Shown: positions 1 to 58,040 of the stretch, piece by piece | How positions within the stretch are numbered: position 1 is the first letter of the stretch | Layout: every line of letters starts with the position of its first letter | From: Datnioides undecimradiatus | Lineage: Eukaryota > Chordata > Actinopteri > Lobotiformes > Datnioididae | DNA length: 64,000 nt | Direction of reading: 5' to 3' | Assembly: GCA_008933995.1 (NCBI GenBank) | Contig: WARS01000015.1 | Location: forward strand, 5,645,861-5,709,860 | The notes under the pieces: model-generated | Databases searched by the model: none | Told to the model about the DNA's origin: nothing | The model's input: only the letters and a program-made list of their open reading frames with translations | Position numbers and translations under genes: made by a program

Positions 1-26361
<26,361 letters not shown>

Positions 26362-31903: not shown

Positions 31904-33461
31904 ATGGAGGCATGGAGGCAATGTGATGTTTTGAGCAGAGAGGCAATGGATGAATCTAGAGAAGATGAGCCACAGATTACTTTTCACGTAGCAAATCAAA
32001 CTATTCAGACACATCCTATGACAAGACCTGGACATGCTGTGTCTGAACTCCTGGAGGATGTTGGGAATTGTAGGCAGATCACCAACCAGGAGCTGAGCCT
32101 TCATTATCTCACTGACTCTCTCTTCACTGAGCAGCAGAAGCTCAGGCACGTGTTGGACTGGGCTCACAGTTTCCTCAGCAGTGATTCAGAGATTTGCAAC
32201 AAACTGTGTGGAGACGACAGCCTGATACTGGGCGATGAAAAGCAGAGGAAAACACTGAGAAAATCACCTGTGGGTAAGCATTCATTTGCAGTTAAACACC
32301 ATCATCCTGTCTCCTGCACTGCAGGTGGTAATAAGGTACTTGAAGGAGGAAGAGGAGGACGGAGCATGCAGACGTTTTGGCACCTTGAACCATCAAATAA
32401 CAAGAACAGTGGTTTAAATAATTACCTGTGTGCATATAAGCCTCCTTTCTCAGATGATCCCTGCTTTGTCCTCTCCTTTATCCCAGGGAGTAAGGAGGTA
32501 ACTTGGCCTGAGTACAAAAAAGCTCCTGAAAATATGAAAAGTACAAAGATACAGGATGCCACCAATGAACAAACTCCAAGTCAAGACAACACCTGCGAAA
32601 CAAAGTGCCTCTTTGTGTCTGATCAAAAACAATGTGCCTACTCATCAGACAGTGACACAAATCAAACACTTGCATCAGACAGTGAAGCAGGCTTTATCAT
32701 GCTGGACTCAAGAGACATATCAGAGCATCAGATGGAGCTGAACAAAGCTGAGGTGGAGGTGGAAACAAATAAGGAAGTGTGGATGGGTGAGAGGAAGGAG
32801 AAGGTAAATGAGGATCAAGACTATAGCTCTGCTTTTTTGAGGTATACAAAGAATACACTGAGCAACAGTAAGTTTGAGGGGGCACAGGAACAGATGGAAA
32901 AGACTTCAAACCTCAGTTTTAACTGTCATTTTAAAATACCTCCAACTTTAACTGTATATGAGCAGTACCAGCTTTGTGTGGATCAGTTGCATCACCTTAG
33001 AGTAAGTCAAAGCCAACATATCAAACCTGTAAAACAGACAAAGGCGTCTGAGGAAACTGCAGCACCTGGTAAAGCGCCGTCCACACCTACAGCCGGCATC
33101 GACTTGAACTCATCCACTGCAAATCCTAAGACTGAAAAACATTTTAACAAAAGGGTTACCAGTGCTGAAATGACAAAGGAGAGGACTTCAGAGGTCATTA
33201 ATAAGAAACGTGACAGATGTACATACAATAGAAATGGGGCAACACTTATAAAACAGGTATTGACAAAACACTGTGATAATCTGACTGTAGAGGACAAACC
33301 TGCAGCAGTTTCTGCTGAGAGCAGATCCATTACCTGCAACACACATCTGGAGCTTCATAGCAACACATGTGGTGAATTGATGAAGGGATCTGCAGGAGGT
33401 ATAAGCTCAACTGATTATGCTCCCACTGTGGAGAAGACTGTTGGATGCACTCCAAACCCAG
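31904..33461 (+). CDS. Long first coding exon of F-box/LRR gene
   Basis: A single 1.56-kb coding exon, unusual beside the 38-161 nt exons that follow. It encodes Ser/Thr/Lys/Glu-rich sequence with no recognised domain; SDSDTNQTLASDSEAGF and similar acidic serine clusters could be kinase sites. It ends CCAG|GTACTG in phase 1. The frame stays open to 33616, but that tail is intron. The 35 hydrophobic codons upstream of the ATG (from 31799) are the polypyrimidine tract of the acceptor and not a signal peptide. Confidence 0.75.
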
Positions 33462-33706
33462 GTACTGAATATATCATGTGTGCCACTCATTACTGTCCCA
33501 ACCTGCTGTGGAGAATGCAAATTATATCTGATTTAAGAAAAAGACTTTGGGTAGACAATTTTTTTTGTCTTATTGTCTTCCCGTGCATCAGAAATTATTT
33601 GAATGACACAATCTGAGCAGGAAAAATCACTCTTTGGTAGAACTACTCACAGATTATTGACTTTGGAAGGTTTTCCACAGCAGGTTTTGTTTACTATTTT
33701 GATTTG

Positions 33707-36078: not shown

Positions 36079-38576
36079 TCACATGGTGTGTTCCCATGAT
36101 GTAAGTGCTTCCAGTGCAGTGGTGTACTGTACCACTCCCTGGACAAACACACAGTAAGATAATCCAGACCAGCACCATCACATGCTCTCATAACTGTAAA
36201 CACACTGTGGTGTAGGTCACTGAATCACCCAAACAGGTTCATAAACTGAACACGACATCTTTCTCTTTTTCTGAAGGGAAAAGTGTGAGGATTGAAAACT
36301 CCGACCTGACTGATTGGTGGTTACTCTGTGTGAGCAGACGACGTCCTCGCAGCCTGTGTCTGTACAGCTGCAGCGGCCTGTCTCTCACCTCCTGCGGGCT
36401 GGAGATGTTTTTCACACTGTGTAGAAAAACTCTGGAGGTAAAAGAGTGAATCAGAACCAACTGACTGAAGAGATTTCTTTACTGTGGGGTGCTTTACTGA
36501 TCGCTCCTGGCAGACATGGAGGATCAGAGGCAGCTGAAGAAACGCTGTAGAGTGGACATTTGATGGAAAGTTCTGGTAGTGATGGTTTGCCATCACATGA
36601 CTTTGTAAGATTAGATCTTCCTGATCAATAAGACACTGTGCTGGTTGTGCGTTATGTGAAAAAAATCTTCCATTTTGAAAGCAAAAAATATTGCATCTAA
36701 GTAAGTGCATCTTCTGTCTTTATAATTTTTTTTTTTTACACACTGAACATTTTTTAGGCAACAGGTTTAAAATTAGATTTAAAGAGCCTGAGCTGATGAA
36801 AAATTACACAATATACATTATACATTTTCATTTCTGTAAAATTTATTTACATTTTCAACATTTTGCTTTGCCGTGCTTGCTTTAAATTATTATTTGAACT
36901 TAACAAGCAATGACAAACACATGTTAAAGATGATCTCTTCTACCTGTGTATCATTTATCAGCCAGTGTCATGTGCACAGTCACTCAGCTGGACTCTGCCT
37001 TTATATTAACCAGGTGAATAGTCTGTATTATATTTATCTTGTTGTTTATTACTTACAGGAACTCAAGGTCACAAGTTGTACTGGTCCTCATCTCCATGGT
37101 GACCGAGTGCTGCATCTGATTGGTCAGCTCTGTGAGCATGTGACCAGTGTGGATGTGAGCTGGAGTGGCGCAACAGACACAGGAGTGAAAGCTCTGAGTG
37201 ACTGCTGCTCCGGGTTTGTTTCACTGAATGTAAACACGCATGTGCATGTAGAAAATGTACAGTTGATCATTTACATGTTGAACTGAAATGTTAAATGTGT
37301 GATTTAGTGTTTTTTCATAAAAAAAAGATGCAGAAAATCACAGAACATTGAAAAAAATGAATCTTCCCTTCAGGTTGCAACTAAAAGCTATTGTCCTGAA
37401 TGGTTGCCATGTTACCGACGACCCACTGATGAAACTCATTAAGAGACATAAAGAAAGGTCAGTGAAAGTATATTTATTCAAGAACTGTAAAAATATGTTT
37501 ATGTTTATCATTAATAATAAGTTGTTATAGTTTGTACGGTCATTTTTTCTGCATGTCAAGACATATTTGAGAGAGTAGCATTTGTGTGTATTTGTGTGCG
37601 TTTTTTCTCTAAACTGACTTGAATAAATAGAGCCTTTTAGTTTTTGGAAGTGACTGATTTGACTTAATTATGTTTTGCCAATCTGTTTCATGTTTCACAC
37701 CTTTAAATCCTATTTTGTGACACTATGACTAGTGGGGTTTTTTTTGGTCATTCTGACAGTTACTTCCAACACTGCAGTTTCACCATACTTGGTCCATAAT
37801 TAGTACATGATTCAGTTGCTCAACATTAACATCATGTAGCGCAATTGACTCAAATGTTTTGGTTGTGTGGTTGTATTCGTAGATCATCTCACCAGAATGA
37901 GAACATGACAAATTTGCATTTTGAACTTTGTTTTTTGTGTTTGCATTTGTCTGGTTGTGTTTTTACATCAGCCTGTGCAGATTGGAAGTGTTTGGCTGTC
38001 AGTTTCTCACTCCATCCTGTCTACAGACAGTTTATGAGGTACTTTATTTTGACTAGTCATCAAATCTTCTTTGTTTTAAATTGCTAGAAATTGTTTAGTG
38101 TATTTCTTGTGTTGGTAGCACAGCACAACAACAACAGAATGTGTTTACTGCTCCATGTCCAGTATGCAGAGCTTCATTTCCTCTCTTTTAGATGTGTCCT
38201 CACCTCCAGCATCTTAACATTGGACAGGTGCCAAAAGTCAACGCACACAGTCTCAAAGTGATGACATCACAGCTCAAATGTCTCATTTCACTAAATCTCA
38301 CTGGACTACAGGCAGTGAGTTTGAAATTTTATGACTCATAATTTCTTGAAATCTGCACTGAAACTCTTGTTTGAATAAGAGATTCAGCAGTTCAACTTCT
38401 GACCTGTAGATTAAAATGTCCTCTCTGCATCTGTTTCCACTGTAATAGGTTTCAGATGCCATCTTAGACACATTGCTGCAGAGTTCTGTCAAACTTCAGA
38501 GCTTGACCCTCAGTTCCTGTCCCAGGGTCAGTGACCTGACACTGCACAGCATCAGCAAATACACACCTTGTATCAG

Positions 38577-38631
<55 letters not shown>

Positions 38632-39159
38632 TACACTCAAACTACATAAATCAGTTGTCAGTTGTCTTTATTGTGAGGAAACTGTGCTGATTTACATCAA
38701 TTCCCTTGAGATGCAAAGTGCTTTTTTGTTTATTTGCAGCCAAGTTAGACTCATGTGCGTCCAGTTTTTGGATGGTATCATGTATTATCATGTCCCTGAT
38801 ATTCTTAGGGTTATTGTGTGTACATCTGTACGTATGTGTGTCAGATCGCTGGATGTGAGTGGCTGTAAGGCAGTAACAGATGCAGGAGTTCAGTCTCTGG
38901 CTCTGGGATGTGGAGGACTTAAGCAGCTGGATCTCAGTTCCACTGGAGCAGGAAACAGAGGGTACAACACATGTCACACAACACACTGAGCTCAATATTT
39001 CTCCAGTGTTTGTGACTGTGTGTGTCAGACATGTCATGCATAATGGTCCAGTGTTGTGAGAGGTCATGATTCTATAATTTAGTACCATTAGTACAGAATG
39101 AATCTCCTCTATTGCAAGAAGATACTTTTTTATGACCACTCGAACAGATGTCGGAAAAT

Positions 39160-39231
<72 letters not shown>

Positions 39232-39746
39232 TGACACAGGGTTACTCTGCTGACGAATTACTGCAGCAGACATCTTGAAATTGTCAAACTCAGTTTCTGT
39301 CACATCACCTTCGAGAGCATACTGAAGCTCTGCGGACACTGTAAGAGGTAAACTCACACACATACAATCACAATTACAATATAACAACATTTATAAGTTC
39401 ATAATGGTGTAAAATCGTTCTCTCTTTGTTATCATGAGCACAATTTAACATCCATACTGGTGATAATCCCAAAAAAGCCAGTCAACACGATGACTACAAT
39501 GACCATTTAATGTTAGATTTAAAAAAAGAAAAAAAAATAGTTGAACTGTCTTCGCAAATGTCTCTGACTGTGGGATAACTTTGCTCAAAGGAAACCTAAA
39601 AAGCCCTGTCACATATCAGCTCACTTTTTCCATGTTCCCCTCTCTTTAGGTTGAAGGTGCTTCACCTCTACGGCTGTGCTCATCTCCCCAGTGAGAGAGA
39701 CATAAGAGCAGTGAACGCCACAGTTAAAATTTACCCTCAGCCCTGA
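31904..39746 (+). CDS. F-box / leucine-rich-repeat protein, unnamed
   Basis: Seen: coding exons 31904-33461, 33753-33903, 34194-34348, 34872-34909, 35132-35279, 36277-36437, 37059-37213, 37374-37457, 37972-38038, 38192-38314, 38449-38576, 38845-38961, 39240-39347 and 39650-39746 (TGA). All phases chain and give 1029 residues. Exon 1 is probably non-coding and ends at 31759 before GTGAGT; coding starts in the exon opened by the acceptor at 31878, with ATG 31904. The first 520 residues are polar, likely disordered, and unlike anything I know. An F-box (LPDEVWLSILSLLPHSD) follows at about residues 640-685, then about ten LRRs (SLDVSGCKAVTDAGVQSLA is typical). Family knowledge: F-box proteins bind Skp1 in SCF ubiquitin ligases and the LRRs pick the substrate. 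It belongs to the FBXL class by architecture, but I cannot assign a member. Confidence 0.85.
33708..33738. repeat. (TG)n microsatellite before a splice acceptor
   Basis: About 15 TG units ending 14 bases before the acceptor AG at 33751-33752 of the F-box/LRR gene. Confidence 0.95.
35132..35279 (+). CDS. F-box exon
   Basis: The exon, phase 0 to 1, encodes WLSLPDEVWLSILSLLPHSD, VCRVLQVCRRLHTLA and ADHTLW, the last residue being completed by the next exon. It fits the F-box consensus: LP.E at the start, a VC+ motif and a closing D..LW. This motif makes the gene a likely Skp1-binding SCF subunit. Confidence 0.88.
35386..35640. mobile_element. hAT-type MITE fragment
   Basis: Begins CCACTGGTAGAAGTATTCAG followed by ATCCTTTATTTAA, then ACAAGTAAAAATTCAGCATT and CTAAAAGTACTCATTGTGC. 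It matches a very common fish repeat whose full copies start CAGTGGTGGAAG (from memory). The right part is too diverged to place. It lies in the F-box/LRR intron 35280-36276. Confidence 0.6.
36016..36079. repeat. (TG)n microsatellite
   Basis: Slightly interrupted TG repeat in the F-box/LRR intron 35280-36276. Confidence 0.95.
36277..39746 (+). CDS. LRR exons of F-box/LRR gene
   Basis: Nine exons encode consecutive cysteine-containing-type leucine-rich repeats of about 26 residues: LCLYSCSGLSLTSCG, VDVSWSGATDTGVKAL, IVLNGCHVTDDPLMKL, LNLTGLQAVSDAILDTL, LTLSSCPRVSDLTLHSI, SLDVSGCKAVTDAGVQSL, then VKLSFCHITFESILKL and LKVLHLYGCAHLPSE near the end. The 117-nt exon 38845-38961 has phase 2 at both ends and could be skipped without a frameshift. 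Confidence 0.88.
38581..38626. repeat. (CA)n tract touching a splice donor
   Basis: About 23 pure CA units beginning four bases after the exon end at 38576; the donor itself reads GTACACAC and runs into the repeat. CA-rich RNA is a known hnRNP L binding element. Confidence 0.95.
39163..39228. repeat. (TG)n tract next to a splice acceptor
   Basis: About 33 pure TG units ending 11 bases before the acceptor AG at 39238-39239. The tract takes the place of much of the polypyrimidine tract. Confidence 0.95.
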
Positions 39747-41321
39747 CTCACATGCAAACATCTGAACACAGCTGGATAGATATAATGTTATAAAATAGTA
39801 AAAAACAAAGAATTATCAAATGATTTTTACTTTTATTACACTTAATCCTGTAATGTTCCACTGATGGTCTGTGTAAAGCATTATGACTTGTGTTCAGTGA
39901 TGTATAAAATGCAACAAATGAATGTATCTGTATGTTTTTAACTGTGTGTGTAGAATAGTTTAGCTGTGTTTGAATCTTTGGAAAGAGTTACTTGAGTTTT
40001 TCTATTTTGGATCAGGTTCATTAACTTGTTATCCGTAACTTGGCTCATTAGTCACCCCTGTTTGTTTGACAGCAAAACAACAAGACAATTATCAGTCAGT
40101 CACTTTAATGCTTGTATGGTTGTGCTGACAAAAGTGCATGCAAGCATCGCTGACTGTCTCCTCATATGTGCACCTTTGAGTATTAGATATAACTGAATTG
40201 TCATTGCAAATTAAATAGTTAAGAATCAAACAAGAAGTACAAAAGAGTAATGTGTGTATGTATAGTGGTAATATATAAATAACCAAACGTGGTAGATATG
40301 AATGACATTATATATAACATAAAACTAGTATAAACAGTATAGATAGCACATGTAAGTGTAGTGTAGGACATTATATACAGAATAAATAATAATATAAAAT
40401 GAATATTCACTTTATGTCAGATAGATAGACAATAGGATACATCTAAATACACCATAGCTCTGCATATGAATGTGAGACTATGTGCAGTGGTGGGGCAACA
40501 GCACTACTGGGTGGGACTGGTGAAGTATATCCAGAACTCAGCTGCCTGCCTTCACAACCTCCACTGGCTCCCAATCAAATATGGGGCTGACTACAAAATA
40601 CTTCTGCTCATCCACAAACTCCTCAATAACCTAGCCTCCTTGTCTGTCCAATCTCCACCCATCACCTGGATGCAAACTCACTTCTGACCACCAGGACCAA
40701 GCTTTGGATGTGGGACAACAAAGCCTTCTCCACAACATCTTCAAACTTGCCTTCTCCTGCTAAGTGACTCCGCTTTTCATCTTTTATTTACCTCCCATCA
40801 AACCAAACCACTGTCATTTCTGGTGTTTTTATGTACATTTAAAGGAAGTTTGAGTATCTAGAAAAGTATCATATAAAATAAATGTATTATTATTATTATT
40901 ATTATTATTGTTTTATATTTCAGTGATATTAGAAAATAGGAACACTGGCAGAGTCTGTATCTGAATCAGAGTGCAGCAGCAGAGGAGATGTTTAGTTGAA
41001 TATGTTAGTCTATTTTATCTGCCTTTTTCTGTCTAAGGTTTGTGCCCTTCTCTCAGTTTTATAGTCTGGAGGGGAACTTTAACAAATCGCTGACTGTATA
41101 TACTAATGAATATGAACCTTATGAATGAATGAAACAAAAAGTTATTTTGTTAAGTTTATACTCCTGCAGACCCTGGCCACACTGTTATTTCCCTCTTTTT
41201 TGGCTTCCCTGCGGGATTCTTCCACTTTGCCAGTCATGGCTTTAACAGCATTTGCAACACCATTTTTAAGGGGCCTTGTTTTCATCAAGAGGGCACATAA
41301 CGTGTCAAAAAAAGGGAAGGG
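39747..41321 (+). other. Intergenic, F-box/LRR gene to rasef
   Basis: About 1.6 kb. It holds the 3' UTR of the F-box/LRR gene, with no clear AATAAA near the stop (weaker AATAAA-containing runs lie near 40380), an AT-rich stretch at 40200-40440, a LINE remnant at about 40515-40760, and (ATT)n at 40887-40912. Confidence 0.6.
40515..40760 (+). mobile_element. 5'-truncated LINE remnant
   Basis: The frame at 40466-40687 contains IQNSAACLHNLHWLPIKYGA followed by DYKILLLIHKLLNNLA. This matches the conserved LHWLP....I.FK.LLL..K.L..LAP..L pattern found at the end of the reverse transcriptase ORF of many fish LINEs. The frame is short and broken. A (ATT)n tract at 40887-40912, common near LINE tails, follows. 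Confidence 0.7.
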
Positions 41322-41328
41322 TATAAAA
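41322..41328 (+). promoter_or_regulatory. rasef: TATA box for rasef exon 1a
   Basis: GGGTATAAAAGTG, a textbook TATA context. It predicts a start near 41350-41355 and a 5' UTR of about 190 bases before the ATG at 41546, with no intervening splice site needed. Confidence 0.6.
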
Positions 41329-41545
41329 GTGAGGTAGCAGAGGGATTGAGACTAATCCTGGAACTGCATGGGATTTTTTTCAGACATGGAGCAAACTGCT
41401 TTGCTTGCTCCCAGCTAACAGCCGCCTTCCAACCATCCCTGATTCTCACCAGATGGAAATGCAATGAATTAAATTCCTGACTTTGGTGTACAGTTGAACT
41501 CCATCAGGCAGCATTTGTTTTTTCAAGAGCCACATTGACAAAACC

Positions 41546-41865
41546 ATGGCATCAAAAAAGGGCATGAGTGAGGAAGAACAAAACCGCCTGAGTTTGCTCT
41601 TTCACGCCCACGACAAGGATAATTCAGGTCGGGTTGAAAAAAATGAGTTCTCTACCATCTGTCAGGAGCTTCATGTCCCGTCGCAGGAAGCTGTCAGTAT
41701 ATTCAACCAGCTGGATGTCAACAGAGACGGTACAGCGACCTTAGAGGAGTTCATCGGTGGCTTCAAAGAGCATCGCTTGGAGAAAGAAGATGATTCGGAG
41801 GAGGACGAGAACTGCTCTAAAAGTGAGGGAGACGGATTAAAGTGTGAGCAACAGGTCACATCCAG
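41546..41865 (+). CDS. rasef: rasef exon 1a: first EF-hand pair
   Basis: ATG in good context (ACCATGG), then [19 protein letters not shown]. Two canonical 12-residue calcium loops follow: [12 protein letters not shown] and [12 protein letters not shown]. An acidic tail with EDDSEEDEN ends at TSCAG... as TCC-AG|GTGAG in phase 2. It lacks the WENFERKMG...KFIPR segment that joins the EF-hands to the coiled coil in exon 1b and in the human protein. It probably has its own TATA promoter at 41322. Confidence 0.85.
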
Positions 41866-44800
41866 GTGAGATGTCATGAAAATCAAAAAACACTTCAGCC
41901 TCCTCCTTATTCAGAGGTTGGTGTTGTGATTATACAATGAACTTCATCACTTTATAACCAAACTGAGTGGCGAGACTCATACAGGGAGTTAAAAACAGGG
42001 GCCCAAGGCTGGTTTTTGCCCTGGGGCATCTTATTGAGCTTATCTGGCCCTGCTAATTCCCTCTATGATGTTACTCAATGTAAAGAATGCATCTAGTGAT
42101 CTATTACAGCTAAAACTATTACAGCTAAAAGTACACAGTGCTCTATGTAAAACTTTCTAAGAAACGTAATATTCAATTAAAACTAAAGTCATTTTATAGA
42201 TTTAATATTTGAAAATTAGTGAGTTTTCCCAAAGATGTAAGTTACGCAGAGTAGAGGACACTGTGTGCACTGTAGGAATTTATTTTCTGGCCTTTTCTTT
42301 CAAATTATACAGGTTCATGATCTCCGGCTCTATAATTTATATAATAAGTTTATTCAATCAGACTTACATTACAGGCTATTAGTCTTCCACCACAATAAAA
42401 GTACTTTCATTTGGCCTGAAGCCCGGACCGCCATTGTTAAAGTGAGAGAGAGAAAGACACATACACACACACACACACACACACAAGCACACACAGTTAC
42501 ACTCACAAGGCACGCACAGGTAATGATCCCTGTCGCGCTACCTGACTCAGACACAGCAGCTGATCTGTCTGTCCGGCTGGCTTCTGGTCGCAACAAACCG
42601 GGGAATTATCTGTCGATGACAACACAGGAGCCGTAGATCGAGTTAGATTAAGTAAATTATTTAAAACGGATTATTTCTGTGAATGCGAAACAGCTGTCAA
42701 CATGTTTGGATAAAGGCGGAAAAGTCTTTTTGGATCATAGTTTAGAGCTCCTGGGTCCGTCTCGGGGGGTCACCCAAATTCACTGAAACGCCTCCTTTCC
42801 CCCACAGCCAGCCACATCCCTCCATCAAGGGTATGAGCGCGGCGGAGCAGGAGCGGCTGCGCTCCCTTTTTCACACCTACGACGCGGACAACTCGGGGCG
42901 GATCGAGAGAAACGAGTTTCTCACCATCTGCGCGGAGCTGCAGGTGTCCGCCACCGAGGCCGAGCGGATATTTAACCGGCTGGACGTCGACCAGGACGGA
43001 ACCGTCACCCTGCTGGAGTTCATCAGCGGCTTCCACGACCGCTACGAGGAGGCCATGGAGACGGACGTAGGAGACGTGTCCGCCGCCTGGGAGAACTTCG
43101 AGAGGAAAATGGGCGAGCAGGCCAAGTTCATCCCCAGGTGAGAGCGCACACCTGACAGCCAGGGAGGTGGCACTGCGCAGACAAATTATGGAAATGTTTA
43201 GATGATATGATTGTGTTCAACAATGAGCGCATTGTGTATAAAGATCTCCACAGGGAGATATCTGACACAAGAGGCATCACAAAAAGGAAAATCCTCAACA
43301 AACAAAGCAGTTCACAAACTGAAGGGTCGAGTTTAAGTGCAGTATAAAACACTCATGTTGGGACTAGTGCAGCCATGTCATTTAAATAACATGCAAACAT
43401 TGTGAGAGTGATAGTTGTCTGTTATGAGCTGGGTGTAAGTGTTTTACATACACTTGTGGTGAGTGTGTCTGTTTTCCTGTACATGGGCAGGTTAATAAGT
43501 TTTCATGTTAACTCAAATGTGTCTGATCCAGTGGATACAGCGAGATAAGAAACTGTACAGCAGCTTTTAACATACAGGTAGCTGTGTGGAGACCTGCAGA
43601 CAATCAGAAGTTAAACAATTATCTAGTCTAAGCTTGCTTATTATGATCTTATATCTTCAGTTTCTTTTATTTACTGAAATATATGTCCTCAGCTGAGCCT
43701 TTACTGGTAAAATTTTATACATCTATCAGTCACTTTATTGATTTTTTAATGGATGTGTAAAAGGTCTGTATCCTCTCCCAAATGAATAATAATACTCTCT
43801 GTCGCCTATTGTAACTGGCTAATTGAAGCCAAGCTTCACCCTTAGCTACACCCATTTCACAAAATTCATTCATAGGCTAACTGGGTGGTGAGATACTGTA
43901 TCATCATTCATAACATTTGGCTAAATAGAGTGACATTTCCCTACTTAAAAGCAGTTTATAAAGGAGTCTCTCAGTATGAACTTTGAGCAGAGACACATCT
44001 CTTCCTCAATTTTTCCACTTTACATGAAAATAATGAAATATTTACATGATGTTGGCACTATACCATTTAATTATAATGGCTAAAATCAATGTGTTCATAA
44101 CAAGAATATTTTTTATAATAAAACTAAAAATAAAATCATTATGTGACAACCAACTTTAAATTTTTGATTTATTTTACTGTTTCTGACAAAATTCTGCTCA
44201 GACAGAGAAGATGTTTCTCAGAGAGAGAGACTTGTTAGAGTGGTCCTCCACCAAACTAAAACCAGAGGAAATCAGAAAACAGTGAAACATTGTCAGTGTA
44301 TGACAAGCACTCATCTCACATATTACATCGGTAACATAATCATACAGTACTGGAGAGGCAGTATCACATGATCAAATTTTCCTGGAAATCAGCGTTCATC
44401 GATACTTGAGGATGACTATAAGCGTTAAAGTGATCCTGCATCACTGGGTTTCTCCACTGTTGATTGTATTTACTCTTTGTGAATCCAAATGTAAATTTTT
44501 CTTGAAAACCAGTAAGAATTAACTGTTATGAAAAACAATTTTTCTTCACAAAATCAAACTTTGTGTATATTTTTAAACAAAGACGCTATTATGAAAATAA
44601 AACCCCTTTCCTTTTTTGCACTTTACACATCTTAGGCCACCTGTTGCTCATAAAATTTCTGTCTTCCACTTGCAGTTTCAGGCCCGCAAGAGTTTTTTTT
44701 TAGTTTTTATAGATCCTCATTTAATGTGTAACTCATAGTACTGCTTTGAGTTACTGTCTCTCATCATTGACTTCCCTCTTCTCAAGTGTTCCTCCTGCAA

Positions 44801-47800
44801 TGCTGCCTGAGTGTTTGTACAAAAGAATAATAAGTTAATAAGTAATAAGTTAAATATACAGCTTGGTGTCTGCTATCTAATCTATATCTACTCTATCATC
44901 TAGTTCACTTTCACATCAATGAAATTTCACTGAAATTATCAAGTTATATTTTTAATTAATTAATTTGATATTTAACTATTTATAGATATAATTATTAGAT
45001 TTTAGATATTTTAGCCAACGAAATTGTTTCTGATTCAGTAGATTTTAACCCCTTTATTTTCTGCACAGCCACTTGTGTTCAGACTGTGTTTAAGATTATA
45101 TACGTTTGGCTTATTTTGTAGAAAAACATGTTTGTGGTTGTGGTTCCTGGTGACATTATCAGCACCAAAACTCAGGTATCAAATCAGCAAAAGCATGCAG
45201 GTTTTAACTTGTTTCCAGTCTATCCACTTTATTGAAAGTGTACGTCTGCATCTGTTTTTATCATGTTTTCATATATTAATCCAGTGTTTATGTGCGTGTC
45301 AACATAATATCTATAGTGCCCGTGTGCGTTGTGTGCGTGTGTGAGTGGCCCCAGGCCTGGCATGAGACTCGTCTTCGTGCTGCTGCTCTCTGGATTTGAG
45401 ACATTGATTGTCACAGTGGTGCCATCTGTTAAATACACCCTCTTATCTTCAAGCAGTTATAGCCACTGTTACAGCAGTCAGCTGAGAGATGACAGTTTGG
45501 AAAACAGAGCACACAGCTCACTTCAGACAAGTGTCTGTTTTTCTGTGGATGAAAGGATATTTTGTGTCACTATGAGATAGAGACATCAGGAGCAGAAAAT
45601 TAATTACATTCCTATTCATACTTTTATTGCTGAGTGAGGCTGATGTAATGAGGCTCTCAGCTGACTGGGACACAAATTAAGTGCTGCGCTACAAGACGGC
45701 TCCTCTGCACAGCATCTTTATATATCACAAGATCTCTAAGATGCTTTCCAAATGCACTTTTGTTTTGAAATGCTTTAGTAAGTGTGGACACAGTGTCTTA
45801 AAGCACTAGGACATGCTATAGACCTCTGAAAGAGGCTCCATCATCATGGAGCCATTTCAGAGGTCTGAGTCACGAGTTCCCCTTGCTTTGAGCTTTTGAG
45901 CATGTTTCTCTTCTTTTTTTAAATCCAGAGAAATAAATGCAAATTGCAAACACATCAAATATCACGATGAATAACAAAAAACATCTTTATTGCTGGCAGA
46001 TATTTCTATTTACGTGTTTTTCTCCAACTTTAAGTGTTTAACCTCACATCACAGCCTAACAACAGTTTCTATGTACAACTTGTTTGTCCCTGCTTGTCTG
46101 TGTGTGTGTGTGTGTGTGTGTTTCTGTTGTGATCAGTTTATGTGTGTGTATGACGAAGCAGCAAGCTGTGTGTCACTGAGTTATTTGCAGACAGGCAGTA
46201 GTGTCTATATGCTTTAGCATTACAGCCAGTCCACCTTGTCAGAAGGCAAACACACGCACACACTGTAGTCTTTATATGACCCACTTTCACCCTTGTGTTG
46301 TGACGCAGACTGATTCATATATAATTGTAATAACTTCCTAACATGCATGCACACATTAATGTTGTAACTTATATATTGATGCATCCTTCTGGTCTGGTTT
46401 CTGTACTGTTTCAACAGGGAATTGTGGTACAGCATAAATTTACACTGAGTCACTGACAGCACGGTTTCTTCAAAGTGTCTTTATTTCCACGTGGCTTTAA
46501 AGGAATAATCCAACATCCTGGGAAATATTATTATGATTATTGTTATATCAATTTTTGGGGGTTTGTCTGCCAGACTATTTTTGTTTGGCACCTGTAGCTT
46601 GGTTGTCTTGTGACTGGAAATAGTCCTGCACAAAAGCCCTATTAGGGAACAATTTGATGTTTTTACACTTCAGTATTTGTACAGATTAAACAAAGTAGAT
46701 GTAACTTGTTAATGAGCACTGCTTTTAGGTGATAATGTTTCCTATTGAGTGAGCCACACTAGCTTTGTCCCTCTATTTTCAGTCTTTGTGCTAAGCTAAG
46801 CTAAATGACTGCTGTCATTATCACAAACAGACAGAACATCAACAGACAGATATGGGAGCTCTATCACTCTTTTCATCTAACTCCAAGAAGGAAATCAGAT
46901 AAGCATATTTACTCAAATGTCCTTTAAACTTGTCATTGTCACAGTCATTGTAATTCAATCACTAAAAATTTGACTAGATCAAATAATTAAATGATCATCT
47001 TAAATACATTGTACAGCTGACAAAGCAGACGTTCAGCTTCTGTATGAATGAAACATAACAACCAGAACTCTTAATCTTAAATTCAAAGTCATGTTTGAAT
47101 TTAAGAAATCTTGTTGGGGAAACATTACCATGCACACGCCAGCACTTCACAACAACAATGATATCAAATCCTGATTGTCTTCCAGGAATGAACAAGCAGC
47201 AACGTTGTACCAGAACATCAGCCTGACTGAGCCCAGACTGATACCTCAGCTTGAGAAAGTCATCATAAACTTCACCAAAGAGATCAAACAGCAGAACTCA
47301 GAGATGGAGAACCTGGCGCTTGCCATCAAACGGTGGGAATCACACACGCATTTACAAACATTCACATGTATCCTTGCGTCTCAATGGGACTGCAAAAAAT
47401 GAGAATGTGTGAAAAACATCGTAACATCGTCAAATAAACTGTGAGAGAATAACAATGTGGATACCAGATAAGACTGCGTAACTCCATGATAGATCAGTTT
47501 CAATGAATCATAAATGCTTTTGTCTTTGCAACAAAAGCGACAAAACCTCTTCTTCGTCATGGACACTTGGAAGAGGACATACTACACAAACACATAGGAG
47601 GCAAAGCTCAAACTCAACGTTCACACAGACAGAAGAAAGGGGAAGAGAGAGAGACAAGAGGAGAGGATGAATATCCTGAAGGGCAAAGATCCAGATAATA
47701 AAGTTAACAGTCCTCTCATTCACAGGACAAACACAGACTTTACGTGTTAAGTTAAATGACTCATTGAGCGTGATAGATATAAATAGGTACAGGTACCTGA

Positions 47801-50800
47801 AGTAATCAAAGAATAAACAACTAAGAATCAAGGCAAAAATATATGAGTTTTAACCAGGCAAGCCTGTTGCAAGCATGTTGCAAACTGAGTAAAACCAAAT
47901 GAAACCTTAATAAGGCTAAACTTAGAGGATTGAATGTCTTGAGGTGTTGAGGTGAATATAAAATGCTTTGAAAGTTTAAAAATAAAGGTCTGATGATGAG
48001 TCAACTGGAGATTTAACACAAAAGTTAAGCCACCCCTGGATGACTTATATTTATTATTTTAATGCTTTATGTTGTAAGTCAAGTGATGGATGGAGGTTAT
48101 TGTTACTGTTACTGTTTTTCAGAGCACAGGACCAAGCATCAATGCAGCTCAGTGAGATGGAGGACGAGATGGACCAACGTATTCAAGCTGCTGAGAGAAA
48201 AACACGAGATCAGGTGAGACAAATTAAGACGCGTGACAACAGGAAAACACAACTTTTTGATGATGTTTGAAATATTACAGGCTCGTGTTTTTGTTTCTCT
48301 GCAGTTTGTGTAGGCAAAGCGATAAGCGGGGCACGTTTGCTCAGCTCCTCCCTCATGTTAAACAAACGTACGCGGCTCAGTATCAAATTACTGATCCGTA
48401 GGCAGACACGCCAGCTGATCAGCTGGGTTTCACATCTCTGTGGATCCCAGATATGAAACAGTTGACAGATAAAGGTGCTTTTAGCCGCCAGTGTTTAAAA
48501 TGATAAGGCTTATTATATTTGCAGTGACAACGATGGCTGACGTGGATAAAAATAATCATCTATAAAGAATCAGGGTGCTGATAATGTGTCATCAGGGTGT
48601 AACAAACCTGAACTATTGTTCACCTGTTTGCAGTGAAGGATGAGGGTTTTTTGAGTGAACTTTGAGCCCTTTGATGTCTGCCTGAAATGTCATGTACGGC
48701 TGAATGAGACAAGTCAGATTTAGGGATGGAGCTGCTTAATTGATAATGATGCAGCTATATTTTAAAACAACAGGAACTTTTAGAATCATGAACTAAAGCT
48801 ATTTTATTCCCTTGTTGACTTTTCGATTTCATGCTTTTCCATCAATTGTAAGCTTCTGGATCACGCGTTGTTTGAGAAAGCTGGAGATATTTCCCGGAAT
48901 TTGGTGAAACACATCAAACAGTGTGTTAAACGATAAGATTTGATAACAATATTTAGCTTTCCATGACATAAATTAAAATGTGAAAACGACTAAAATCAGT
49001 GACTGAACAGTACAGCTCACCTGCAGGTTCATAAGGTTGTTTATTGTAATTGTAATTTTAACTTATGTCCCAATGCTTCTTTAAAACATGCACATGAACA
49101 TAAACCTTGCCTTATCACTGAGAGTGTGTATAAACTTATGTAAGTGTACTGCACTGACTCAGCTATCTCAGGAGCCGCTGTTTGTTCTGTGTAAGAAAGG
49201 CACACAAATTTAGAGGGCACTCGCCTGCATCCTGTCACACTGAAATGTATGTCGTGTTCTGACACCATTAAGGGAGGTTTTTATTTTTGGAAAACTGTAG
49301 ACGGTTGCTGATAGACGTATCGACTCCCCGGCAGCCTCCGAACAACGGTTCAAAAGCAGCCCAGAAATAGCACGGAGTGATGTGCCACAGAAATGACATA
49401 ACTGAAGAGAGAGAGAGTAAACACACACAATCACACTTTCATGAAATATATCACAAGCCATTATTTATTGGGGGGGTTTTCGCCCGTGTTTGTGTTTGTA
49501 TGCATCTTTATGCAGGAGAAGAAGCAAACAGAGGCCGCACTGAATGAGTTACGAAGGAGTTGTGAAAATGAAGTGTGTGAGCTGCAGTGTAAGATCCAGA
49601 GGATGCAGATGGTAAATGTTGAACTTTATTTTCATTCTAACACAACATTAACACGGTAGGTCAATATAGACTCCTGCCAACTCTATGAATATGCTGATTC
49701 GCCTCATACGGTCGCCTTAAATAAACCATCATACCAACCTCATGAGACTTGAGCCATGAACAGCCTACAATATAATGTTCAAATGTAAAAAATATTTTTT
49801 TATTTTCTTGTCTGTAGTTGCATTAGAATAAGTGTCATATTGGAGATTATAATGCAAATCTTTAAGCCATGCATTGCTACAGTCAGAGAGCACAATGCTG
49901 CACTGCTGTATCTCACTGACATGTGGGACAGGAATGTGCATTTGACCTATTTGAATGCAAACACTCTCAGTCTCTTAAAAGACTGTGCTGTAGATGTCTT
50001 TTATGAGCAACACTGACTGCATTCAAAAGAAGCTGAAACCACGACTAATTTATTCTTTCGACCTCTTGAAAACACAAATGTCAGCTGGAGTCAGTGAAAT
50101 CCACTAATTGAAACTTCAAAGCTACCATGACTGTGTGTGTGTGCGCGCATGTATGTGCATGCAGTCTCAATAACAACAGTTTGAGTCACAATCTAATTTA
50201 GGACAAATTACTTTAAACCTAAATGTGTGAACTCCATCAGATAGAAGAGAAGTACAAGAACATCACTGTGAAAGATGAGAGCCCAGCCTTGAAGAAGAAG
50301 ATCAATGAGCTGACACTGGTGAGAGTGAATATACTAATTTGTAACATCTTAGTTCTGTCGTTTCACTACAGTTAGTATTTTGGGGTGTCTCTTGACTTTC
50401 AGTTTATAACACACTCAGTTTCTTACATATTCCATCTTCCTCTCTGCAGGAGAACCAGAGGTTAAAGCAGGAGCTGCTGAAGACTCAGACCACACTTGCC
50501 TGTCTGCAGAGTGAGATGGACTCACTGAAGACAGAGTTAATGGATCAAAGCATCAGCTCTGAACGGTGAATTTATTATAGTTTGTTCTGGCTTTTGTGTC
50601 CTTATATGTGTCATACATTTACCATTTTCTTTACTTCAGTGTTCAGTCATTTCACTGGATTTATCTTGACTGTAAACCTTGAAAGTCTAAACCTAGTAGT
50701 AGAGGTACAGGTTTTCTGCCTTTTTCTCACCCTACTTGTGGATTAATGTGAACATGAGAATAATCACTGTATGCAACCTGTTCTCCATCTTTTATAACTT

Positions 50801-53800
50801 CAAATGCTCTAACCTCATGCTCATGACCTTAAAGTAGCATCTTTTTGTTTAGTGGTCATTTTTGCTCTATTTAAATTAACCTGTTTTTTCCTCATTTCAG
50901 TGTTTTATGAGGGAGGGATATATCTCTATCTGACATAAGGCTCTGTCTGAAACTTACTCTCCAAGTCCTGGTGAATGTGTTGAAAAAATAGTGATTTAGA
51001 GCTAAAAATCAACTAAAGGGACTCTTGTAAAATTACGTGTAACATATATAATATATATAATGAAGGGTTTCAAATGTATGCACTGACTCAGATCAACAGT
51101 GTCTCATTAAAGAGGTGCAACTCCAACAAGCATGCAAGAAGCCCCAACAGCCTGAGAAACATGAGAAGCAAACCTCCCTATTTTTAATTGCTGTTGAATA
51201 GTTGTCAGATGTGTCTGGGGACAAAAATCTCTGTTCACCATGTAAGTGACAACAGGAACATTCATTAATAGATTAATTTCACAAGAATCAATTATATAAA
51301 TCATGCTGTAAACTACTGATCAAACGACTTCTATGTGGAGAAGTTTTGCTACTGAGACATACAGAGAGACGGCGGCCACGCCCCCTGTGACAGACTGACA
51401 GTTAGTTCAATCCCAGGGGCCGTTTTCTCTTTTGTCACAGCAGAAACAGGATATCCTGGAGTGACTTCAGACACACAATAACTTCTTCAAAGCGTTGCTT
51501 AGCAACAGAAGCAACAGGGCCACGGGCGGGATAACACTGTGCCTTCCCTGACCCTGTCATTGCTGTTGTTTACATTGTAGTTTCTCTGTCTCTGAAGTGT
51601 CTCATGTTGAACATAAATTAGGTTTAATGTCTTTGAGTGGATCAGTTGATCTGCTGTGAAAAATTGGTTTTACAGACATGAACTGCACTTCACAGCCACG
51701 GAAATATCTCCCATCCTGTTTACTATCTGACCTCACGGTGCAAAGGTTTTCACTCGCACTAATGCAGATTGTCACTATTTTAATTGTTCTTTTGGTTTAT
51801 AATCATAATTGACTGTGTTTTGTTTCAGAGATGAGGAGCTCATGAAACACTTCTCCGATGAGCGAGACATCCTGGAGAGTCAGATCGAGATCTTGCAGTA
51901 TGTCAGACATGATTAAACACACTGATTATTGCTGAGATTTCCCACCACAGAGGGATAGGGATCTTATTGCACCTATTTTGAGAATAAAAAGTTGCAATAA
52001 TGTTTTTTTTCTGTGTGTAGGACAGCCAACAGGAAGCTTCATGACAGCAATGACGGCTTGAGGGCCACTCTGGAGAGGATCACCAGGGTAACGCTGCACA
52101 GTTAATCGAAAAATAATCAAAATTTTAAAGCTAGTTCATTTTAAATGTTAGGTTAGGTGGACTTCATATAAATTCTGGTGCTTCTCTGTATAAATATGCA
52201 ATTAACTTTTGGGTCATTTGACTGGATTTATTTGAAATACATTAAAGTTGAATTGCTGCTCAACACACCTCTGCATCATAATTGTAAACCCAGTTTTTAC
52301 ACGCTCGTTTTTCAGGGTGCACTTTTTATTTTTCACAGTAAGAAGGGCAGATCAAATGTGGTGTTTAAACCTTTTTATGTAATTTAAACACATTAAAAAT
52401 AAATTTATTGGAACAACAGATGAAACAGGAAACAGAAATACAGGTAGTTAACTTTAATTGTGTGTGTCTTACAGTCTGGTAACGTGGGGTCACCGTCAGA
52501 AATAAAGGACAGAAGCAGAAGTAAAAGCATCTGCTACACATCATCTTCAGCATTAATGGATAGGTAAGACCCACAAACAGTGCAGAGGTTAACAAATATC
52601 ACTGTGCCATCTGCACCAGTGTATGAGTTTACACACTATGTACAATATCATCTTTTTATTCCTAAAGCAAATTAAGCATTTTAAGTCTTCCTCATTAGGG
52701 AAACTCATGATAGCTCAAGCAGAGTAGGGCTTGAACAGTGCATTCACTTTATTATTTTCAGTTGCGTCAAGTTTAAGATTAAACCGTTAATGTAGGAGGA
52801 TTAACTGGTGAACAGTTTCAGGGCCTTTATGTCAGTTCAGGTTTATCAGGTTCAAAGCATTTGCATCAGGAAAGCACAAAAGGGGATTTTGCATAAGTGC
52901 ATAGTGACACAATCCAGGTGCTTTTCTTGGAAATGAACGGTTTGCTCCCCTAAAACACATTATTGTGGATTTACACAGCAATAATGTGTATAGTAAGATA
53001 CAATGTTTTTTTATGATGCCATCCAAGCTGACGCACTGAGAAGCTGAACCACATGATTCTGTGATGCTTTAGAGTTGGACTGTTGATATTTTGTGTTGAA
53101 GTTGCAATATAATATATTCAGCTGCACTTTATGTCAGATTAGGGCAGCAGCATTGCACAGCTATCCTAACTATTAGGATAAAGAACAGCGGGGTTCTGAT
53201 AATAACACACACAGAGAGGGTTTGACTTGATTCTCTGCTCTACTCCACTGTTTCTTTAATGGCAAATAATGGTTTGCTGGCATCTCATAAGGCTGAATGT
53301 TGGATAGTTTACCTTTAAAGAATAGTGCAGATAACAAATCAATAAAAAGACAGATATTGGTGTATGCAGATAGCGTTTCAGTTTATCAGGACTGAATGCG
53401 TTTCCCGCCTTAACTTTACTTTGGCATGCCGAATGTTTCTGGCAAAAAGCAATTCAAGACTCACTGTAAAACCTCAGTATTGGCACTTCAAGTGAAAGAT
53501 TTTGGGCACCTTTGTGTTAAATGCAGGTCAGTTCCCCTAATTGCAAACAATTTTTGTTCTCAACTACACCTAGTAATAACAAGCTGTTCAGGTTTAATTG
53601 TTTAGTTTATTTTTATTTGGGGATATTTTAGCCTTTACTGACCAGAATACAGTGAGGAATGAAACCAGGAAGTGTGGATAGAGCGGTGGGGTTGATGAAC
53701 AGCAAAGGTCCCCAGATTATTGCCTCCACTTTAAATCAATAGAGATGAAAGCTGGTGGATCAATTTCTACTGAAGATATTGTCAATATGGCTCCAGACCA

Positions 53801-56800
53801 AAGTGTCCAAACTGGTTAGTGCCATTTTATTGGGATCAAGGCAGAGCTGAGCTGACCTCTGTGCGATACATCACAGACTATTTCCTGACTTCCTCTTCAG
53901 GTTCTGCCAGCGCATGGACGATTTCCCTCTTTACAGCCGCCGGCCCAGCTGTGACACTTTGGCCTTGGCCATGTGTGACCCGGGCCTGAGGCGCAGACAC
54001 AGCAGTGAGTACGAGGAGGACAGCCTGCCTGAGGTCTACATGGACAGTGGCCTGTCGACGCTCAGGGGATCACATGGAGGCTACGACTCAGAGCAGGAGG
54101 TCAAAGGTCAGGAAGAGGAGGAAGATGAAGACAGAGGGGAGAAGAAGAAGGAGGATGACAACAATGACAGCATGATTGGAGAATACTCTGACACTGAGGT
54201 GAGACACAAAGACAGTCATTCATATGTACATGTATGTCTACCTGGGTCATGTCTTACCTCTAGCACTAAACTCAAAGTACAAATAAGGCTGATGGGTATT
54301 TTGATTATTAATCAAAGTGTCGGGAGAATTTCACCTGACGATGGTGCAGCATATAAATCAGGCAGAATCAGATGTCGTTACATACAAGATATTTCACTCA
54401 AAACCACAAAACTTATCTTCATGGTGGCAATAGACGAAAAGTCAGAGCCTCGTAGAAGTCTGCAGGATTCATCCGCAGAGAAATATCTGTACAAAATGTC
54501 ATGCCAATCCATCCAGTACTGGTTGAGATATTTCAGTCAGGATCATGGTGGTGAAGCAACAGCGCAGCAATCAGCACAGTGCCCAGAGCAACCACTGCTG
54601 GAACAGCAGAAACTGACATGAAGAATACTTCATAAAGCTTTTGGAAAGCTTCTAGTCAGAAATTTAAAAAAAACATGAAAGTTTTCCAGTTTCTAGTTTT
54701 GTCGGCAGCTACTGTGCAGGTCTGTGAGTCGGTTTAAATACAATGATGTCTGGTAATTTGTGTCTACATCGCAGCCTGCAGAGACTCAGGATGGTGAATC
54801 GGCATTCGGGTCAGACAGCAGCTCAGTTTTGGACTGGAAGCCGTCTGAATCCATTAGTGTGACCAAACCACCAGCAACAACTACACGCAAAGCCCTCAGT
54901 GCCATCAGTATTCAGGTAAGATAAGAGAGCGGGGAGGAGATCTAATCAAGTTACACGGTTAGTTAGAAGATGATCCCATTGATTTGGGTGACTTTTAGGC
55001 CTTTTTGTTCAAAGCTGCCATCATGTCGAACTCTCTACATGTGTTGTGAAAAGCAATGCAGAGAAATGTATCTAATTAATTAATTAATCCCATTCAACAC
55101 TGAGCTAAACACACATTTTGGGTTCACACTGCATTTTCTCAAGCATCATTCTTTATACATACTTTACAAGTTCAGCTCAACTAAAACTCATCAGTGTGTT
55201 CTTTGCTTATGAAGACACTGTGATATAGTGGAAATTACAACCTGTAACTAATCTGTAATCTAGTCAGCTAGTCTATCAGTACTGTCTCTGCCTCCCCTTT
55301 ACAGAAGGAGGACAAGGACAACATTGACCTGGGCTACATGACATCAGAGAAGGCCTACAGGATCGTGTTGGCTGGAGATGCTGCAGTGGGGAAGTCCAGC
55401 TTCTTGCTTCGCCTCTGCAAGAATGAATTCAAATTAAACTCCAGTGCTACACTAGGTAGGTTGGACAAACTGACTAATGATTAATTTTTGTAAATATTCA
55501 GTCAATCTCATTGGTTACTGATGATGAGTAGTGCAACAGCACCGTAATATCATCATGTAAAATGTGTGTTTTCATTTTTAGCGTGTAACAACTGATTTTT
55601 TACATTCATGTGTTCAGGTGTGGATTTCCAAATGAAGACACTAATCGTGGATGGAGAGCCTGTTTTACTACAACTATGGGACACTGCAGGACAAGAGAGG
55701 TGTGTGTTAATGTTTGTAGATGTTAAACAAAAATGTAAATAGATTTATGTACATGAAGTTAATTGCTTCATTTTAAGTTAATATACCAGTATAACACTGT
55801 CTAAGCAGACACTGGTGAAATTGAGTGTCCTTGTATGCTTGTATGCATCTTGAACCATTTTCTCCTCTCAGGTTTCGCAGCATTGCAAAGTCTTATTTCC
55901 GCCGAGCAGATGGTGTGTTGCTGCTGTACGATGTCACCTGTGAGAAGAGCTTCCTTAATGTTAGAGAGTGGGTGGACGTGATAGAGGTAATGTGCCGTTC
56001 TCCTCTGCTAAAAAGTGACCAACTCACAATGTTTTTGACTGAGTCACTGTAAAAATATTTTCAGGCTTCTCTTCTTTCCTGTGATGGAGACATGTCTTGG
56101 CAGCATTTGTGTTATTACAAGTAAAAGTGTCACACATTCACTTGAAGATCAAACTAAGTGATCTTACTTGTTTCCCTTTTCACATGCAGCAGATACGTAA
56201 GTGTTGAATGTACATTGAATGGGCCGTGTTCTGCTGTTAAACTGTGGGCATGCTGACATTTCTGTGACTTATTATTATTATTAATGCATGCAGTTTGTGT
56301 CTTTTTGTCATGTGCTGTCTGACATAATGCACAATGTGCACCAGTGGTGGAATACAACTAGTGGTACTTATTTACTCAAATGCTGCCCTTAAGTACAATT
56401 TTGAGATTCTCAAACTTTACTTAAGGATTAATCAATTAGAATTATTGGCTATTATACTTCTGTTACTTTGTATTTCTACATGACTATATTTTGGTCGTTA
56501 GTATTTTACCTTTTACTCCACTGTATCTATTGAAAACCTTAGGCCCAAATTTATTTATGGATTTAGAAGATTGAAACAAAAAATAAATAAACAAACAAAC
56601 TGCTGTGACCTTAAAGTGATGTACATTTTAATGCATCAATAATAATCTAGTAACTTAATACATATGATTCCATAATTAGCAATTCTGCATGATGTGTACT
56701 TGCCCTTACTTTTGTGATATTACTCAACTTAGAGTTTGAACAAGATTTACTGGGGTTTTGCTTCCACCACTGATGTTCACACTGTGATTAAAACCAATAG

Positions 56801-58040
56801 TTTCAGTTTTTTAACAGTTTAACATTTTTTTATTTCCTTTGTTCATTTTTATATTCTGTTTATTTTATTCTCTTTTTTTATGTGTTTGCATAGCAGGATG
56901 TGTCGCAGGCGGACATTCCCATCATGCTTGTGGGTAATAAGTGTGACCTTAGACAAGATGGAGTTAACTGTGTTCCTACCAGCTATGGAGAAAAACTGGC
57001 CATGGTAATGACAAACAGAGTCACATTTCTCTGCTTTTGAGGACATTTTAATGAGTACATTACTCACAACACATTTATTACACTTGCTACACGTCTGCAC
57101 ATGCAACGTTGCACTTCTTTAAAACAAATAAGAGGTTTATAATTAGCAGTATATTAAACATCAAGGTTTAATGATTTCCTGTCTTCATCCCACAGACTTA
57201 CAACACTCTGTTCTGTGAAACTAGTGCCAAAGATGGCTCCAACATCCTGGAGGCTGTGCTGCACCTGGCCAGGTAAGACACAACCGTTTCAGTCAGCTAA
57301 ATGTTTAAAATAAATACATTTAAATTTGGACATAATAATGGATTTTTGAGCGTATGTCCAAGATAATTTATCACCATCAGGTAGAAAACACTGAGAGGTT
57401 AAAATGTGATGGCACCACCAGGAAAATTAAAAACATACTCAGGATCACCTTTTATACAATATGAACAGGAAATGGTCTGGAAGCCTAACTTACAATTGCG
57501 CTGCCCTCTGGTGTCTAAAAGTAAGACCAAAAGGTCACTGTGAAGCAAGACTAACAGAAGAATTAGAGGTATTTTTAATGTAAATGGACAAAAGTCATGT
57601 TTACATTCAGTATTGCTAAGCAAAATGCAATGACGCATCACTGTAGTCTAACATATATGTTTATTTTCTGTTCAAAAATAACTAAACGTGGACATCTCAT
57701 AGAAATAGCTCAATATAGCGTATAGGGACCTATAATTTGTTTATAGTTATAGCTCATTAGTCTCCTGCAGATTAGGCATGAAAACTGTTGTTCCTGTCCC
57801 CCTGAACCTTGTCAGCTGTAATGAAATTGGTTTAAGATAATTGGTTAGCAGCTCCCTGCACAAAAAAACATTAATTTACACTATAAAAATGTTTTAATGC
57901 AACTATTTCTTGGTCCTGTTTTCTTTCCACTCCATAGGCAGGTAACAAAACATGCTACTTTTGATGAAAAAACTCACTATCAGTCGCTGCCCAGCTTAGA
58001 TGCTCCCAGAAGAAAACCGAACTTCTCCTGCTGCACCTGA
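41546..58040 (+). CDS. rasef: rasef, RAS and EF-hand domain-containing protein
   Basis: Seen: exons 41546-41865 (1a), 42808-43137 (1b), 47186-47332, 48123-48213, 49516-49611, 50241-50318, 50450-50565, 51829-51897, 52021-52087, 52475-52563, 53901-54198, 54775-54915, 55305-55455, 55618-55699, 55872-55986, 56897-57004, 57196-57272 and 57938-58040 (TGA). Phases chain throughout. Predicted lengths: 715 aa (1a only), 825 aa (1a+1b) or 710 aa (1b only, ATG 42833); the human protein is 740. Order of domains: EF-hand pair(s), coiled coil, acidic Ser-rich linker, Rab-type GTPase, C-terminal CCT for prenylation. Family knowledge: RASEF (Rab45) is a membrane-associated, self-associating large Rab GTPase found near the nucleus. 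All five nucleotide-binding motifs are intact. Odd: the EF-hand exon is duplicated. Confidence 0.96.
42700..43150. promoter_or_regulatory. rasef: CpG-rich segment over rasef exon 1b
   Basis: The local CpG and GC content rises sharply over exon 1b and the bases just before it, then falls again. This is typical of a vertebrate CpG-island promoter and would fit a second start site for rasef. Part of the rise may only reflect a GC-rich coding exon. Confidence 0.45.
42808..43137 (+). CDS. rasef: rasef exon 1b: second EF-hand pair
   Basis: Closely related to exon 1a ([19 protein letters not shown] against [19 protein letters not shown]), with intact loops [12 protein letters not shown] and [12 protein letters not shown]. 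It ends [17 protein letters not shown], as in the human N-terminus. It is GC-rich and CpG-rich, unlike everything around it. CCTCCTTTCCCCCACAG just before 42808 is a good acceptor in phase 2, and the frame is open from there into ATG 42833. The exon is 330 nt (phase 2 at both ends), so it may be an internal cassette after exon 1a or an independent first exon. Confidence 0.85.
45820..45866. repeat. 47-nt inverted repeat (hairpin)
   Basis: AGACCTCTGAAA plus GAGGCTCCAT on the left pairs with ATGGAGCC plus ATTTCAGAGGTCT on the right across a 4-base loop, with one small internal mismatch: about 20 base pairs. It is too short for a usual pre-miRNA. It may be a relic of a MITE or an RNA structure in the rasef pre-mRNA. 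Confidence 0.75.
46497..46925. mobile_element. Degenerate fish MITE with long inverted arms (copy 2)
   Basis: Left end TTTAAAGGAATAATCCAACA and right end AAATGTCCTTTAAA are roughly inverted. Inside are GAAATAGTCCTGCACA, CAGTCTTTGTGCTAAGCTAA and TTTTCATCTAACTCC, which match the right arm of copy 1 at 4740-5045. Confidence 0.6.
47186..52563 (+). CDS. rasef: rasef coiled-coil exons
   Basis: Eight exons (47186 to 52563) encode heptad-rich helix: [113 protein letters not shown]. These align with the self-association coiled coil of RASEF. The last exon (52475-52563) is Ser/Arg-rich linker. Most introns are 0.1-2.6 kb and AT-rich, without recognised elements. Confidence 0.92.
53901..54915 (+). CDS. 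rasef: rasef linker exons
   Basis: Exons 53901-54198 and 54775-54915 encode a flexible linker: [15 protein letters not shown], the conserved [14 protein letters not shown], a long Glu/Asp/Lys run ([17 protein letters not shown]), then [13 protein letters not shown]. The open frame runs on past the donor at 54199 to 54621, but that part has no family similarity and is intronic. Confidence 0.9.
55305..58040 (+). CDS. rasef: rasef Rab-type GTPase exons
   Basis: Six exons encode the GTPase: P-loop GDAAVGKSS, switch I ATLGVDFQMK, switch [13 protein letters not shown], base-recognition NKCD and [27 protein letters not shown] lies between. All key residues are present, including the usual Gln in WDTAGQE. 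The end NFSCCT* is a CCX-type double-cysteine motif for geranylgeranylation. The exon at 56897 has a TAGCAG double acceptor that would add one Gln if the first AG is used. Confidence 0.96.
56342..56772. mobile_element. hAT-type MITE, 431 bp, in rasef intron
   Basis: Ends are CAGTGGTGGAA and TTCCACCACTG, an exact 11-bp inverted repeat. The flanking octamers ATGTGCAC (56334-56341) and ATGTTCAC (56773-56780) differ at one base, the 8-bp target duplication of hAT elements. No transposase. It contains TTACTCAAATGCTGCCCTTA and other motifs of a common fish family; the fragment at 35386 is a relative. Confidence 0.82.

Follow-up and report, generated by a model that had tools for sequence, protein, structure and literature searches.

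The window analysed here is a stretch of 64,000 nucleotides of contig WARS01000015.1 from Datnioides undecimradiatus, whose source assembly comprises 581 Mb in 497 contigs. Between 41.5 and 58.0 kb, its + strand carries one rasef (Rab45) gene with tandem EF-hand exons, 1a and 1b. When the encoded GTPase domain was compared with the PDB, the top match was human RASEF (2p5s, 3.4e-87), followed by Rab8A (2.1e-43); because the first match lies so far ahead of Rab8A, the gene is identified by sequence as RASEF. The following features are discussed below.

41322..41329, + strand: TATA-like box (GGGTATAAAAGTG context), 224 bases 5' of the 1a ATG; candidate 1a promoter
41546..41865, + strand: rasef exon 1a; ATG in the strong context ACCATGG, EF-hand pair, acidic tail, donor CAG/GTGAGA in phase 2
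42600..43199, no strand assigned: CpG-rich stretch; candidate 1b promoter, which includes the GC-rich coding exon
42806..42807, + strand: acceptor AG before 1b, phase 2; would permit 1a-1b-2 splicing
42808..43137, + strand: rasef exon 1b; EF-hand pair and conserved WENF...EQAKFIPR tail, ATG at 42833, donor CAG/GTGAGA in phase 2
42821..42832, + strand: S-I-K-G segment, 12 bases immediately 5' of the 1b ATG, which match codons 3-6 of 1a at 8/12 bases
47186..47332, + strand: rasef exon 2; start of the coiled coil, acceptor common to both first exons
48123..54915, + strand: rasef exons 3-11; coiled coil and linker
55305..58040, + strand: rasef exons 12-17; Rab GTPase domain and C terminus to the stop codon

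All 16 downstream exons are preceded by AG, and GT follows each of the 15 that need a donor. When the first exons were joined to these 16 exons and translated, the three splice forms contained no internal stops and had the lengths predicted by the sequence-only reading: 715 residues for 1a-2, 710 for 1b-2 and 825 for 1a-1b-2. Exons 2, 3 and 6 of the coiled-coil middle are 57, 83 and 54% identical to a human RASEF sequence. Exons 4, 5 and 9 gave no match to it at E <= 1; like exon 17, which is also without a match, they were placed from frame and splice borders alone. The predicted protein ends in ...NFSCCT, with cysteines for putative prenylation, the last exon being set by frame and acceptor only. 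A tandem acceptor (TAGCAG, 56891-56896) precedes exon 15 and could add or drop one residue of the GTPase domain.

Exon 1b together with exons 2-17 has the domain order of human RASEF/Rab45 (PDB 2pmy, 2p5s), namely EF-hand pair, coiled coil and Rab GTPase. Known RASEF was said at the outset to have a single EF-hand pair, in agreement with PMC8303950, which describes two EF-hands; here two exons offer two pairs. As the other RASEF features tested are present, the fish gene is, on its predicted protein, a variant of RASEF.

Both EF-hand exons score above the curated cut-off for Pfam EF-hand families, and the best PDB sequence match of each is 2pmy, the human RASEF EF-hand. The two are 65% identical in protein (46/71 residues, E 2e-32) and 69% identical in DNA over 209 aligned columns. 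The tandem duplication in matching phase that had been proposed is borne out: both frames are open, both exons end in phase 2, and the donors are identical over nine bases, at the coordinates originally given. Base differences fall on codon positions 1, 2 and 3 in the numbers 17, 14 and 40 over 71 codons (chi-square p 0.0002), and dN is 0.23-0.24 while dS is saturated (1.4 by LWL85, 3.7 by ML, undefined by NG86). With low dN, saturated dS and an excess of third-position changes, we therefore read the duplicate as old and its protein as kept under purifying selection. No match between the copies was found below E 1 outside the exons (41301-42000 against 42561-43300). An assembly artefact or recent haplotypic duplication, which a tandem arrangement might bring to mind, is ruled out by the saturated dS and the dissimilar flanks, together with the 65% protein identity, and we give it practically no credence. 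Judged from these comparisons, the duplication is real and under selection, and it affects the sensor exon of a known gene.

The copies differ in their second calcium loops and in their tails. Ligand positions are kept in all four loops, as expected from the claim that each exon has two canonical loops, but loop 2 of 1a, with Ala at position 8, does not match the PROSITE EF-hand pattern, whereas the other three, 1a loop 1 and both loops of 1b, do. The layout described as common to 1a and 1b likewise holds through the second EF-hand and ends there. The 1b tail (WENF...GEQAKFIPR) resembles human RASEF, whereas the 1a tail is acidic; homology between the tails was considered and rejected, the similarity being confined to an EQ and the donor region and not convincing. 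Structural models built from two-row alignments (mean pLDDT 72 and 70 for the two EF-hand exons) contain the EF-hand pair in both cases, with an additional low-confidence tail helix in 1b only. A Foldseek search with the 1a model ranked 2pmy first (E 3.5e-4), with a modest TM-score of 0.39 by query.

A genome search with 1a hit three places: 1a, 1b and C334:9442635-9442820 (37% identity). The last belongs to a second, compact RASEF-like gene on the - strand (C334:9433700-9442820), with an EF-hand exon, coiled-coil fragments and Rab GTPase exons downstream; we infer that it is possibly a paralogue not kept in mammals. Its loop 2 also fails the PROSITE pattern. No second EF-hand exon was detected at this gene by tblastn at E up to 10, over about 9.6 kb upstream and a stretch downstream. 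The idea that 1a was taken from another EF-hand gene was rejected, the sole other match being this 37% identical exon, which starts a separate RASEF-like gene; the search scored 5 candidates with no calmodulin-type gene among them and was not exhaustive. A second true copy of rasef was also rejected: a search with the coiled coil at E up to 10 gave 12 matches, of which eight are the gene itself, one (E 0.09) is the C334 gene and three are weak (E 1.2 to 5.9). Relatives were also sought among viral contigs, where 10 pattern matches were obtained and 0 were confirmed.

To which copy the ancestral state belongs was examined with five rows (1a, 1b, human RASEF, the C334 exon and CRACR2A). The tree with human as the tetrapod, of the kind suggested by the sequence-only reading, grouped 1a with 1b (support 81/86, not decisive), but the alternatives that join human with 1b (p-AU 0.095) or with 1a (p-AU 0.098) were not rejected. 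Human was placed beside the 1a and 1b pair with support of only 49/30, CRACR2A formed a long branch, and the end branches measured 0.42 for 1a and 0.11 for 1b. Over 63 hand-aligned columns, 1a and 1b share 41 identities, 1b and human 33, and 1a and human 28; the C334 exon has 22 to 25 identities in 62 columns with each of the three and carries WEEF, similar to the WENF of the 1b tail. In comparison with human, 1a has 7 private residues and 1b has 2. Because 1b has diverged less by this count and by branch length, and keeps the conserved tail, it is most likely the ancestral exon and 1a a derived copy that arose on the fish side, although the alignment behind this has only some sixty columns.

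The same asymmetry could mean that 1a begins a separate short or truncated gene, or is a decaying relic, and is never joined to rasef exon 2: the conserved tail is gone from it, it has diverged further than 1b, and the PROSITE pattern does not fit its second calcium loop. Such a fate is improbable in our judgement, given that the 1a frame is open, that dN is low against saturated dS, and that the 1a donor is strong and in a phase that fits exon 2 (score 11.4, the same as that of 1b; five + strand sites in the window score as high, both donors included). In addition, only 942 bases separate 1a from 1b, and no further EF-hand copy was found in the window at a significant E-value.

We consider it rather probable that 1a and 1b serve mainly as alternative first exons that exchange the calcium- and dynein-binding head of the protein. 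The first coding exon would have been duplicated in tandem long ago, leaving two EF-hand exons under purifying selection. Transcripts starting at a CpG-rich promoter of its own would carry 1b and encode canonical RASEF of 710 residues; those starting at an upstream TATA-type promoter would carry 1a, skip 1b and join exon 2, giving 715 residues with a flexible acidic linker in place of the conserved link to the coiled coil. The richness in CpG around 1b and the TATA-like box ahead of 1a both favor two separate first exons. In the three 200-base blocks of 42600-43199, observed/expected CpG is 0.99, 1.08 and 0.81 and GC is 0.43, 0.64 and 0.59, the middle block (42800-42999) being the highest in both, while observed/expected CpG is 0.21 in the two blocks before 1a. 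The contrast between the exons is real yet not clean, because the block inside 1a reaches 0.88 (GC 0.48) and GC just before 1b is only 0.43. Two further observations count against alternative first exons: the eight bases of the TATA-like box, TATAAAAG, occur nine times in the window (6 on the + strand and 3 on the - strand), which makes the box weak as lone evidence, and the leader before 1a would contain five upstream ATGs if transcription begins near 41352.

A precedent for such a change of the N terminus exists in mouse, where, according to PMC5057473, Rasef-S/TSG arises from an alternative transcription start and first exon, as proposed here. The mouse first exon drops the EF-hands, whereas fish 1a encodes a second pair.

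The acceptor before 1b is where the sequence-only reading had placed it, ending at 42807 in phase 2, with the frame open up to the 1b ATG. Together with the homology above that ATG, it counts against the use of 1a and 1b purely as first exons, in which neither would have a role unless they are relics. Both would find a use if transcripts began with 1a and took in 1b as a true internal exon, with 1a-1b-2 (825 residues) as a major product and two EF-hand pairs in series before the coiled coil; we hold this as a tentative possibility. The acceptor scores 7.75, which is the best of any AG within 42500-42832 and mid-range among the acceptors of the gene itself (leave-one-out range -4.5 to 12.8, with a matrix built from the 16 acceptors placed in this analysis); the phases of 1a and 1b match with an open frame, and back to the upstream stop 1b has no in-frame ATG other than 42833. 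Set against this, AGs scoring at least as high number 108 of 4220 on the + strand (1.7 per kb, a count that contains the gene's own acceptors and this site) and on the - strand 84 of 4224, and chance alone would place about 0.05 in-phase acceptors in the interval from the upstream in-frame stop to the ATG. Phase and open frame over 8 codons would amount to a weak coincidence, and the CpG-rich stretch suggests that transcripts start at 1b.

The similarity of the 12 bases above the 1b ATG to 1a, as if these codons were once translated, is significant (8/12; 0.0047 by the binomial and 0.0059 from random pairs, that is p ~0.005) and falls to chance level further upstream. It had been taken to indicate that 1b was copied from, or used as, an internal exon; the homology holds, but internal use fits it no better than a lost start codon does. 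In our alignment the human start lies about four codons 5' of the 1b ATG. Judging from the match, the codons above the 1b ATG were probably translated for some time, from a former upstream start or by read-through from 1a.

Whichever way the exons are joined, the head that they encode belongs to a class known to contact dynein. Dynein adaptors use their EF-hand pairs to bind LIC1, a light intermediate chain of dynein, and calcium is needed for this by CRACR2a and not by FIP3 or NIN (PMC7655957). The same text reports that the calcium-binding residues of human Rab45 are kept in both EF-hands. According to a 2021 review, human Rab45 is mainly epithelial and its EF-hands were at that time uninvestigated (PMC8303950). 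Two sources speak against a calcium effect: in that review the interaction of Rab46 with dynein is independent of calcium, and a paper on KASH5 points out that EF-hand adaptors may bind calcium without being regulated by it (PMC10071310). CRACR2A/Rab46 (PDB 6psd) is, like RASEF, a large Rab with an EF-hand pair, which binds LIC1 in a calcium-dependent manner in PMC7655957. It has a single pair with one calcium site, and its sequence is far from 1a and 1b. LIC1 binding by CRACR2a requires residue F58; its aligned counterpart is Leu in both 1a and 1b and Val in human RASEF, so by alignment a hydrophobic residue is kept at this position. Under the preferred use of 1a and 1b as alternative first exons, swapping the pair could alter the calcium response of RASEF-dynein transport, and we infer that the 1a and 1b forms may differ in this respect.

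Ninein (NIN) is not known to have a Rab domain or a first-exon duplication. As a dynein adaptor it carries more than one EF-hand pair, which makes it the nearest precedent found for the four-EF-hand form; its second-pair region showed no LIC1 binding in PMC7655957. A Rab-type GTPase with four EF-hands in series beside two single-pair isoforms, acting as a three-state, calcium-tuned dynein adaptor, possibly in pigment cells, is an unlikely outcome on present sequence data. The literature covered, from which subscription papers are mostly absent, yielded no report of a second rasef EF-hand exon; what PMC9004415 lists with human RASEF is a transposon fossil and not an exon copy.

EF-hand dynein adaptors differ in their calcium control, and a single coiled coil and Rab domain served by two EF-hand exons would constitute a natural swap experiment. 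The cell can probably make two, perhaps three, versions of one transport protein that differ in calcium sensing, and the locus is one more example of a duplicated first exon through which a sensor domain would be exchanged. Color change is a setting in which fast organelle transport matters. In two fish expression studies, rasef differs in expression between killifish color morphs and is listed among color-change genes of Midas cichlids (PMC4168119, PMC3623868). The link to pigment rests on these two studies, and an easy pigment story is countered by mouse cells, in which knock-down of Rab45, unlike that of Rab44, left melanosome distribution unchanged (PMC9586991).

Elsewhere in the window, an open frame of 610 codons from stop to stop (31784-33616) has no Pfam match at E <= 0.01. 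A second open frame (25840-26361), also without a Pfam match, resembles the C terminus of FRMD3/FRMD5; FRMD3 lies next to RASEF in human. A leucine-rich repeat gene lies on the + strand at about 36500-39750 (LRR_6 in the one exon tested) and ends some 1.8 kb 5' of exon 1a.
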